A stretch of 64,000 bases of DNA from Rhodospirillales bacterium 24-66-33 (GTDB lineage Bacteria; Pseudomonadota; Alphaproteobacteria; Reyranellales; Reyranellaceae): NCBI GenBank assembly GCA_002281855.1, contig NCHQ01000001.1, positions 186,001-250,000 of the forward strand. Direction: 5' to 3'. Positions 26,455 to 30,065 of this stretch are shown one piece after another. The translations under genes and the position numbers were made by a program. Every line of letters begins with the position of its first letter. Within the stretch, counting starts at the first letter, position 1. The notes under the pieces are model-generated. The model was given only the letters and a program-made list of their open reading frames with translations, was not told where the DNA came from and made no database searches.

Positions 26455-28230
26455 CTACGGCAACGTCGCGACGTAGGCCCGCCAGCCGCCCAGCGAGGTG
26501 ATGTCCTTGGCGCCCTGCGCCGCATGTGCCTCGCAGAGGAAACCCAGCACATCGGTCCCGTCGGCCAGGCTCACCGTGCCCAGCCCCAGCGGGGCGGGGA
26601 TGCGGCGCAGCAGGTCGCCGATCCTCTCGACCGGCAGGCTCCACACTTCCAGCTCGATGGCGCCGCCGCCTTCGGCCACGCGCACCAGGCCCGGCCGATG
26701 CGGCGGGCCGCCGGGCAGGGCGTAGAAGCGATAGGCGGGGGCGGTCCTGCCGGCGGTCTGCAGGCGCCCGCCCAGTTCCAGAAGCTGGCCGTTCAAGGGG
26801 AGGCCGCTCATATGCGCGCCGACCACGGCGATCGGCACGCGATCCTCCGCAACGACGGGATCGTTCTCCGGCTGCGGCAGGCGGCTCATCGTCTTGCCGA
26901 GCGGCAAGGGCACCGCGCGTTGCCAGCGGGCGCCGAACGCCAGCAGGGCGCGTTCGGCATTCGCGCTGGAGATCAGGGTGATGCCGAACGGCATGCCGTC
27001 GGGGCGGAAGCCGGCCGGCACGGCGAGTGCCGACAGGCCGAAGAAATTCACGAAGTTGGTGTAGTGGCCGAGATGCGAATTGTAGAGCACCGGCTCGCGT
27101 TCGAGATCGGCCAGCTTGTAGATCGTGCCGGCCGTGGGCACCGCCAGGAAATCGAGCCCTTCCATCTGGGCGAAGGCACGCGCTTTGAGTTCGGCGAGCC
27201 GGTACTGGCCTTCGAAGGCATCGACGGCGCTGTACTCGAGGCCGCTCAGGACGATCGCCCGAGTCGTCGGCCAGACGCCCGCCGCGTCGTCGGCCGCCTC
27301 CATGAAGGCGCCGACCGCCGCGGTGCGCTCGGCGACCCAGGGGCCGTTGTAGAGAAGCTGGGCAGCATCGCGGAACGGGGCGTAGTCGATCGCGACCGGC
27401 GTGCCGCCCAGCCCCTTCAGCCGCTCGATCGACTGGGCATAGAGCGCGGCATAGGCGGCGTCGCCGAAGAACTCCGCGTCCTTGGTGTCGAGGATGCCGA
27501 AGCGGAAGGTCCGGCCGATGGAAGGTGTCGCGTGCGGCTCGGCGGCGACGGCGAGCACCGCATCGGCATCGGCGCAGGAGAGGGCGAAGACCGAGGTGCA
27601 GTCGAGCGAGCGGCAGGCCGGCACCATGCCTTCGTTGCTGAGCAGGCCGGGTGTCGGCTTCAGGCCGACGATGTTGTTGAAGCCGGCCGGCACGCGGCCC
27701 GATCCCGCAGTGTCGGTGCCCAGCGAGAAGCTCACGAGGCCCGACGAGACCGCGACGGCCGATCCCGAACTCGATCCGCCGGGTACATACGAGGCGTCGA
27801 ATGGATTGCGCGGCACGCCATAGGGCGAGCGCACGCCGACGAGGCCGGTGGCGAACTGATCGAGGTTCGTCTTGCCGATCACGATCGCGCCGGCGTCCAC
27901 GAGGCGACGCACGACCTCCGCGGAAGCCTTGGCGTCATAGGCGAAGCCCGGGCAGGCCGCGGTCGTTACCATGCCGGCAACGTCGATATTGTCCTTCACC
28001 GCGAACGGCACGCCATAGAGCGGCAACCGGTCGATCTCGTCGCGCCTTGCATCCAGCGCCACAGCTTGTGCGCGCAGCGCGTCGTCGGAGGCGCGGGAGA
28101 TCCAGACCTTGTCGTCGCCCGCGTTTGCGATGCGTTTCAGCACCTCCTCGATGGTCTGACGCACGTCGAGCGTGCCGGCGCGATAGGCGCCGAGCAGCGC
28201 GTGAACCCCGAGGTCGAGAAAAGCTGTCAT
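26455..28230 (-). CDS. atzF: Allophanate hydrolase
   Basis: A 591-residue enzyme close to the usual length of about 600. The N-terminal amidase-signature domain carries the catalytic Lys in PFAVKDNID, the GGSSSGSAVAV loop and the Ser in GTDTAGSGRVPA. The C-terminal domain from about residue 465 (VAVVGAHMSGLPLNGQL, YRFYALPGG) is the decarboxylating part specific to allophanate hydrolases. It converts allophanate to ammonia and CO2. No urea carboxylase gene is present; instead it is divergent from atzG-atzE-atzH-like genes, which fits carboxybiuret breakdown. Confidence 0.93.
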   Translation of the reverse strand: MTAFLDLGVHALLGAYRAGTLDVRQTIEEVLKRIANAGDDKVWISRASDDALRAQAVALDARRDEIDRLPLYGVPFAVKDNIDVAGMVTTAACPGFAYDAKASAEVVRRLVDAGAIVIGKTNLDQFATGLVGVRSPYGVPRNPFDASYVPGGSSSGSAVAVSSGLVSFSLGTDTAGSGRVPAGFNNIVGLKPTPGLLSNEGMVPACRSLDCTSVFALSCADADAVLAVAAEPHATPSIGRTFRFGILDTKDAEFFGDAAYAALYAQSIERLKGLGGTPVAIDYAPFRDAAQLLYNGPWVAERTAAVGAFMEAADDAAGVWPTTRAIVLSGLEYSAVDAFEGQYRLAELKARAFAQMEGLDFLAVPTAGTIYKLADLEREPVLYNSHLGHYTNFVNFFGLSALAVPAGFRPDGMPFGITLISSANAERALLAFGARWQRAVPLPLGKTMSRLPQPENDPVVAEDRVPIAVVGAHMSGLPLNGQLLELGGRLQTAGRTAPAYRFYALPGGPPHRPGLVRVAEGGGAIELEVWSLPVERIGDLLRRIPAPLGLGTVSLADGTDVLGFLCEAHAAQGAKDITSLGGWRAYVATLP

Positions 28231-28286
28231 GTGAGGGTTTTAGACAAGCAATGCGTTGAATGCAGCCTCCAGATTCGCGCAGACCT

Positions 28287-28302
28287 TGGCACGGTCCTTG
28301 CC
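28287..28302 (+). promoter_or_regulatory. Sigma-54 (-24/-12) promoter for the atzG-atzE-atzH-like operon
   Basis: TGGCACG-GTCC-TTGCC matches the sigma-54 core consensus TGGCACG-N4-TTGC at every fixed base and spacing. Transcription should begin near 28313, before the small open frame at 28342 and atzG at 28498. The element is nearly symmetric: the minus strand also reads GG-N10-GC (AGGCAAG-GACC-GTGCC), pointing toward atzF 57 bp away. Activator sites were not identified. Confidence 0.7.
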
Positions 28303-28341
28303 TTCCCGGACTGGCGGGAAACAGGGGAGCGAGGGTGTGCC

Positions 28342-28461
28342 ATGAAGCGTCGCGCGCATGACACGGCGGCCGGGCTGGCAATCCTGCAGATTCTTCTGCA
28401 GCTTGGATGGGAACTGGGCGCGAGCTACCGGCTCATGCGCCGCGATCTCCATGTCGTCTGA
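28342..28461 (+). CDS. Possible 39-residue small protein at the head of the atzG operon
   Basis: An ATG follows GGGGAGCGAGGG by a short gap and opens a 39-codon frame (MKRRAHDTAAGLAILQILLQ and on to LMRRDLHVV). It has a basic start and a central hydrophobic helix. It lies between the sigma-54 site and atzG, so it would be the first translated frame of that message. I recognise no family. A 70-codon minus-strand frame (28240-28452) overlaps it, and either may be spurious. Confidence 0.3.
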   Translation: MKRRAHDTAAGLAILQILLQLGWELGASYRLMRRDLHVV

Positions 28462-28497: not shown

Positions 28498-28686
28498 ATG
28501 GCCGAACAGAAGCGTGACGTGGCGCGCATGGTCGAGGAGGGCGCGAAGACCGCAGGCCTCGCGATCGCGCCCGAATATCTCCCCAACGTGATCCTCAACG
28601 TCGAGCGCTCCCTGATGATCGCGCAGCCGCTGCTCGAGCTGGATCTCGAGGACGATCTGATGTCGGCTCCGGTGTTCCGGCCATGA
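28498..28686 (+). CDS. atzG: AtzG-like small subunit of 1-carboxybiuret hydrolase (DUF4089)
   Basis: A 62-residue protein matching the DUF4089/AtzG type: VEEGAKTAGLAIAPEYLPNV, then LELDLEDDLMSAPVFRP. AtzG resembles GatC and forms a complex with the amidase AtzE. The ATG at 28498 has AGGAAG upstream. The gene overlaps atzE by four bases (ATGA), the coupled order expected for a stable two-subunit enzyme. Confidence 0.88.
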   Translation: MAEQKRDVARMVEEGAKTAGLAIAPEYLPNVILNVERSLMIAQPLLELDLEDDLMSAPVFRP

Positions 28687-30065
28687 CCGACCCTCTTTCG
28701 AAGGCCGCGACAGCGACGGAGATCTCGGGCGCCGTGATGAGCGGCAAGGTCAAGGCCGCTGCCGTGATCGACGCCACCCTGAAGCGCATCGAGGCGGCGG
28801 AGCCCACGATCAACGCTTTCACCGACGTGGTTGCCGCGCGCGCCCGCCAGCGTGCGGCGGAGATCGACGCCGGGCTGCATCGCGGGCCGCTGCTGGGCGT
28901 GCCCTTCGCGGTGAAGAACCTGTTCGACATCGCGGGCCTGCCGACCCGCGCCGGCTCGAAGATCAACGTCGACGGCCCCAAGGCCGAGCGCGACGGCGCG
29001 CTGGTGCGCAAGCTCGAAGCGGCCGGCGCGATCCTGGTCGGCGGCCTCAACATGGGCGAATACGCCTATGACTTCACAGGCGAGAACGCCCATTACGGAC
29101 CGTCGCGCAATCCGCACGATCCTATGCGCATGTCGGGCGGGTCGTCCGGCGGCTCGGGCGCGGCGGTGGCGGCGGGAGAGGTGCCCCTGGCGCTGGGTTC
29201 CGACACCAATGGCTCGATCCGTGTGCCATCCTCGCTCTGCGGCCTGTTCGGGCTGAAGCCGACCTATGGACGGTTGAGCCGCGCCGGGTCCTTCCCCTTC
29301 GTGGATTCCTTCGACCATCTCGGGCCGATCGCCCGTTCGGCAGAGGATCTGGCGCTGTCCTTCGATGCCATGCAGGGCTGGGATTCGGACGACCCGGTCT
29401 GCACCGACCGGCCGGCCGATCCGACCCTGCCACGCCTGATCGAAGGCGTCGACGGGCTGCGCATCGCCATCGCCGGAGACTATTTCGCGAAGGGCGGCGA
29501 GCCCGAGGCGTTCGAGGCCGTGGCGACCGTCGCAAAGGCATTGGGCGCGACCAGGACCGTCGTGCTGCCGCAGGCGGCCGCGGCGCGGGCGGCGGCCTAT
29601 GTCATCACGGCCATCGAGGGCGCGCAGCTCCATCTGCCGCGGCTGCGCACGCGTCCGCAGGATTTCGATCCCGACACGCGCGAACGCTTCATGGCGGGCG
29701 CCCTGCTGCCCGGCGCCTGGTACGTGAAGGCCCAGCGTTTCCGCCGCCAGTACCGCGCCCACGTGCTGAAGCTGTTCGAAGAGGTCGACGTGATCCTGGC
29801 GCCGGCCACGCCTTGCACCGCGCCGAAGCTCGGCCAGACCATGATGACGCTGGACGGCGTCGAGCTGGCGGTGCGCGCCAATCTCGGCATCTACACCCAG
29901 CCGATCTCCTTCATCGGCCTGCCGGTCGCGGTGGCGCCGCTGCAACGGCCGGGCGGTCTGCCGATCGGCGTGCAGCTCATCGCCAAACCCTACAACGAGC
30001 AGGCCGCGCTGCGCGTGGCCGCGCATCTGCAGAAGCTCGGCGTCGCCGCCGCGCCGCCCGCCTGA
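28683..30065 (+). CDS. atzE: AtzE-family amidase (1-carboxybiuret hydrolase large subunit)
   Basis: A 460-residue amidase-signature enzyme. The catalytic Lys is in VPFAVKNLFDIAG, the Gly/Ser loop is MSGGSSGGSGAAVAAG, and the nucleophile Ser is in GSDTNGSIRVPSS. The stretch GEYAYDFTGENAHYGPSRNP is typical of the AtzE group. With AtzG it is known to hydrolyse 1-carboxybiuret from cyanuric acid ring opening. Because no cyanuric acid hydrolase is in view, the natural substrate here could be a related ureido compound. Confidence 0.9.
   Translation: MTDPLSKAATATEISGAVMSGKVKAAAVIDATLKRIEAAEPTINAFTDVVAARARQRAAEIDAGLHRGPLLGVPFAVKNLFDIAGLPTRAGSKINVDGPKAERDGALVRKLEAAGAILVGGLNMGEYAYDFTGENAHYGPSRNPHDPMRMSGGSSGGSGAAVAAGEVPLALGSDTNGSIRVPSSLCGLFGLKPTYGRLSRAGSFPFVDSFDHLGPIARSAEDLALSFDAMQGWDSDDPVCTDRPADPTLPRLIEGVDGLRIAIAGDYFAKGGEPEAFEAVATVAKALGATRTVVLPQAAAARAAAYVITAIEGAQLHLPRLRTRPQDFDPDTRERFMAGALLPGAWYVKAQRFRRQYRAHVLKLFEEVDVILAPATPCTAPKLGQTMMTLDGVELAVRANLGIYTQPISFIGLPVAVAPLQRPGGLPIGVQLIAKPYNEQAALRVAAHLQKLGVAAAPPA

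Follow-up and report, generated by a model that had tools for sequence, protein, structure and literature searches.

The gap between atzF and atzG in the 64,000-nucleotide stretch of DNA analysed here (the window) contains a candidate sigma-54 −24/−12 promoter element, TTGGCACGGTCCTTGC, located on the plus strand at 28286–28301 and recognised by its motif and conservation. It is highly likely that this is a one-way sigma-54 (RpoN) promoter for atzG-atzE-atzH, most probably activated by NtrC when nitrogen is scarce, and inherited from a dppABCDF-atzGEH arrangement divergent from atzF. The evidence lies in the motif, its conservation and direction, the scar of a deletion behind it, and the fact that rpoN and a GAFTGA-bearing NtrC are encoded, all read from sequence.

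The sigma-54 site and its surroundings

The genes around the site were assigned with family models. The divergent neighbour is atzF, coding for allophanate hydrolase (26455–28230, minus strand). On the plus strand are atzG (AtzG-like, PF13318; 28498–28686), atzE (AtzE family amidohydrolase; 28683–30065) and an atzH/hpxZ homologue (PF11533, NF033625; 30075–30473). The AtzG, AtzE and AtzH family matches lie in that order on one strand, which identifies the cluster as atzGEH (1-carboxybiuret hydrolase). The original prediction described atzF and atzG as coding for subunits of a single pathway; they are not subunits of one enzyme, and the partner of AtzG is AtzE (PMC6219798). AtzE is insoluble without AtzG (PMC6219798), so a single atzGEH transcript would supply the complex. 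A consensus scan for a sigma-70 promoter for atzF found none. Upstream of atzF, its frame stays open through the promoter in several relatives (minus strand, 28231–28460), and gene callers may therefore annotate a falsely long AtzF.

In TTGGCACGGTCCTTGC, the GG of the −24 element is at 28288–28289 and the GC of the −12 element at 28300–28301, with the fixed spacing of TGGCAY-N5-TTGC. The perfect core match that had been claimed was confirmed: TGGCACGGTCCTTGC at 28287–28301 on the plus strand has zero mismatches to TGGCACG-N4-TTGC, and is the only such match in the window, where 24 further matches each have two mismatches. The base following TTGC is C, against W in the consensus. When mismatches are allowed, the total number of matches in the window is the same as in shuffled sequences, so the signal lies in the perfect match rather than in how many matches there are.

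The sequence TTGGCAYGNNNNTTGC occurs six times in this 6.12 Mb Reyranella genome (G000), against about 1.06 copies expected from base composition, and its reversed control pattern does not occur at all. Judged by position and family matches only, the six copies lie upstream of atzGEH, rpoN, glnK-amtB, a TorF-like putative porin gene and two ABC-transporter genes. The first of these two copies is before a gene for an SsuA/NMT1-type substrate-binding protein adjoining a gamma-glutamyltransferase gene, and the second is before a gene for an ABC transporter ATPase adjoining a PuuE-like gene.

Several of these regions are worth describing individually. A strict sigma-54 site lies about 50 bp before the rpoN start codon (L076, 1501–1516; G000:C7:173920–173935), which suggests autoregulation of rpoN. 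At L077/L078 (G000:C30:43368–43428), two strict sites 45 bp apart point in divergent directions, one before glnK-amtB and the other before the TorF-like putative porin gene. This arrangement, in contrast to the atzF/atzG gap, has the look of a genuine divergent sigma-54 pair. In L087 (1649–4291; G000:C2) the order is gamma-glutamyltransferase gene, sigma-54 site, SsuA/NMT1-type substrate-binding gene. In L088 (2130–9634; G000:C2) an ABC transporter that has a sigma-54 site of its own lies among several PuuE-like polysaccharide deacetylase/allantoinase genes, and this group is perhaps a purine-nitrogen unit.

Direction and conservation of the probable promoter

Comparison with relatives, of which the close ones with names are Reyranella or Rhodospirillales, supports the predicted direction toward atzG-atzE-atzH. 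The prediction also called for a search for −24/−12 sites in homologous atzF-atzG gaps, and the motif points to atzG in all 16 genus loci with divergent atzF and atzG, over gaps of 63–279 bp. The site is also intact in 11 further genomes, where it faces a dipeptide-type substrate-binding gene (dppA) and mostly lies 53–57 bp from atzF. By family assignment, dppA in these transporter carriers is followed by permease and ATPase genes and then by atzG-E-H.

A strict search then covered named genomes, looking for [N]TGGCA[CT]N5TTGC in the 330 bp that precede the first gene. This motif is present in 43 of 45 related loci, either before a dpp-type transporter-atzGEH unit or before atzGEH alone, compared with a chance expectation of 0.003 per region, calculated from the remainder of these loci. 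These comprise 28/28 Reyranellaceae loci, which are mutually related and partly repeat the earlier genomes, and 15/17 loci of other groups, which are out of sample. The two loci that lack it are from Azorhizobium. Nor was the strict motif found near atzG in atzGE loci that have neither dppA nor a divergent atzF (for example in G022, G035 and Methylobacterium), so sigma-54 control of atzGEH is not universal. In the Reyranella loci of G022 and G035 (L092 and L093), atzG-atzE is accompanied by no more than a remnant of atzH, and atzF, the transporter and a strict sigma-54 site are all missing from the neighbourhood.

The placement of the site follows the gene to its right. Its distance to dppA is 51–107 bp, mostly 57–61 bp. 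Where the transporter is present and the gap is longer, the site is about 50–60 bp from the rightward gene and about 180–280 bp from atzF; in G006, an insertion leaves it 281 bp from atzF and 58 bp from dppA. The site is also present in 12 of 14 loci that have no neighbouring atzF (Bradyrhizobium and others), at 58–61 bp before dppA. The conserved distance to the rightward gene, together with the presence of the site where atzF is absent, indicates that it belongs to the rightward operon.

The original prediction went further, proposing a nearly symmetric element that serves both directions through a second GG-N10-GC on the minus strand. This pair does exist: it runs from 28302 down to 28289, with the atzF start about 58 bp away, and 17 of the 31 divergent loci retain the mirrored GG/GC. 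It is not beyond chance, since each strand of the window has about 1.1 copies of GG-N10-GC per 100 bp. The sequence GGC...GCC gives rise to it, since the opposite strand then has GG...GC one base over, and the other 14 loci have lost it. The mirrored pair needs a C after TTGC, and in relatives this base may be C, G, A or T. On the minus strand the site has three mismatches in 11 core positions (three to five across the divergent loci), and "nearly symmetric" is thus an overstatement. Given also that the site shifts away from atzF as the gap grows and occurs where atzF is missing, a single bidirectional sigma-54 element serving both atzF and atzGEH is very improbable.

The open minus-strand frame upstream of atzF offers another explanation, namely that the motif is kept merely as part of a coding sequence, because this frame spans the site and runs into atzF in several relatives. 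The frame appeared coding-like at first, and was rejected as a gene: stops break it in L005, L011, L098 and L101, and its pN/pS over the scar is about 1. The motif moreover persists where the rest of the frame is absent or the neighbouring gene is different. This explanation is scarcely tenable, and the one-way promoter for the rightward operon remains the preferred reading.

Transporter loss and the scar ORF

Between the site and atzG there is a 39-codon ORF, MKRRAHDTAAGLAILQILLQLGWELGASYRLMRRDLHVV (28342–28461, plus strand), which is open in nine genomes and carries the scar of a deleted transporter operon. It starts 56 bp after the site, which is the promoter-dppA spacing of the relatives, and its first 12 nucleotides, ATGAAGCGTCGC (28342–28353), are identical to the start of dppA in transporter-carrying relatives. 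The piece at 28381–28457 comes, in the same frame, from inside dppF, the gene for the ATP-binding subunit, with 73% identity over 77 bp to G031 (E about 1e-7) and 77–78% in the related locus L011. The ORF thus joins the dppA start to an inner piece of dppF. A scar that matches both ends of the transporter operon implies that the transporter was deleted in the clade of the window. Very probably, the same promoter drives dppABCDF-atzGEH in the relatives, and the five-gene transporter was deleted in this clade. A move of the transporter to another place in G000 was considered and rejected: the best DppA match left there is only 42% identical, compared with 89–93% among carriers, which indicates loss.

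In G029 and G007 the promoter is joined to the 3' end of dppF. Both genomes sit in branches beside transporter carriers (bootstrap 88 and 94), and from this placement the deletion probably took place more than once, although the pattern may also have come about through recombination between strains. In a deep transporter-free group (G024, G011, G001, G036 and G027) the transporter may be primarily absent.

The question of whether the scar ORF is a gene was addressed by comparing the nine genomes. Its sole internal indel comprises a whole codon, whereas the indels outside are mostly not multiples of three. Its variable sites favour third codon positions (26, against 18 and 13 at the other two; p 0.005), and its pN/pS between the two subclades is 0.53 (0.30–0.86), although within each subclade the interval includes 1. 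These signals are suggestive of a coding sequence. A Pfam search of the ORF gave no family. Our proposal, which is tentative and which we would not be surprised to see fail, is that this ORF of 39–40 codons is a new small gene that is translated off the sigma-54 mRNA and that selection maintains, serving either as a small protein or a translational lead-in to atzG, while separate deletions elsewhere rewired the same promoter to atzG.

Activator, known systems and implications

Genome G000 has one rpoN and two full-length enhancer-binding proteins, NtrC and NtrX, encoded in an ntrBC-ntrYX cluster. The GAFTGA loop is needed for contact with sigma-54 (PMC10274813). It is present at residue 217 of NtrC and absent from NtrX, which makes NtrC the likely activator. 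A search for an upstream NtrC site conserved across the loci found none, and this, together with the presence of NtrX beside NtrC, leaves some room for a sigma-54-dependent promoter with a different activator, such as NtrX or one from another genome context. Such an activator is unlikely, given that only NtrC has GAFTGA and that other copies of the motif precede nitrogen genes such as glnK-amtB. The window contains a single GCAC-N7-GTGC dyad (28161–28175), a candidate NtrC-binding site inside atzF, 125 bp upstream of the promoter. It was rejected as a conserved NtrC site, being confined to the clade of the window and absent from all 36 other loci.

With NtrC as the preferred activator, low nitrogen would lead to phosphorylated NtrC, sigma-54 polymerase would open the promoter with a transcription start predicted near 28312, and the mRNA would run through the scar ORF into atzG-atzE-atzH. 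The promoter, leader and dppA start codon would have been retained after the transporter deletion, and would now lead via the scar into atzG.

Sigma-54 control is already known for the homologous atz operons of Pseudomonas sp. ADP (PMC6834077), which counts in favour of a sigma-54 promoter here. There, atzDGEHF with the divergent atzRSTUVW resembles the present locus in having homologous atzG-atzE-atzH and an ABC transporter unit nearby (PMC6834077). In Pseudomonas, atzD leads the operon and atzF ends it, the LysR-type AtzR adds control by cyanuric acid, and it is the transporter that is divergent. In the present locus the divergent gene is atzF, the operon was very probably led by a dpp-type transporter before its deletion, and neither atzD nor atzR is seen in the operon itself. 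No paper linking atzR with NtrC was found in the open library, which holds part of the literature.

Clusters of allophanate hydrolase, ABC transporter and atzGEH genes are likewise known in Proteobacteria (Esquirol et al. 2018; PMC6219798), and among the beta-proteobacterial clusters described, about half have transporter genes between atzF and atzGEH (PMC6219798). These clusters bring together the same genes as here, except that their atzF is on the same strand, and the paper gives neither a promoter nor a deletion series. In Klebsiella oxytoca, hpxWXYZ is strongly upregulated under nitrogen limitation, and NtrC and sigma-54 were suggested for it from promoter sequences (PMC8381380). Its genes are homologous to those here by name (HpxZ belongs to the AtzH family), and its neighbours differ. 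To our knowledge, no transporter deletion is known for hpxWXYZ. What is new here is the loss of the transporter with retention of the promoter, and the scar ORF; for neither was a paper found in the same partial library.

For Reyranella, the results point to a concrete candidate promoter through which nitrogen could control atzGEH, and conservation extends this to Bradyrhizobium, Ferrovibrio and relatives. The scar shows clearly how a small ORF can be made by joining both ends of a deletion. The sigma-54 promoter is kept, and the genes directly behind it are lost, at a minimum of three different deletion joints. These joints are natural experiments, and suggest that control of atzGEH is worth keeping even without the uptake system.
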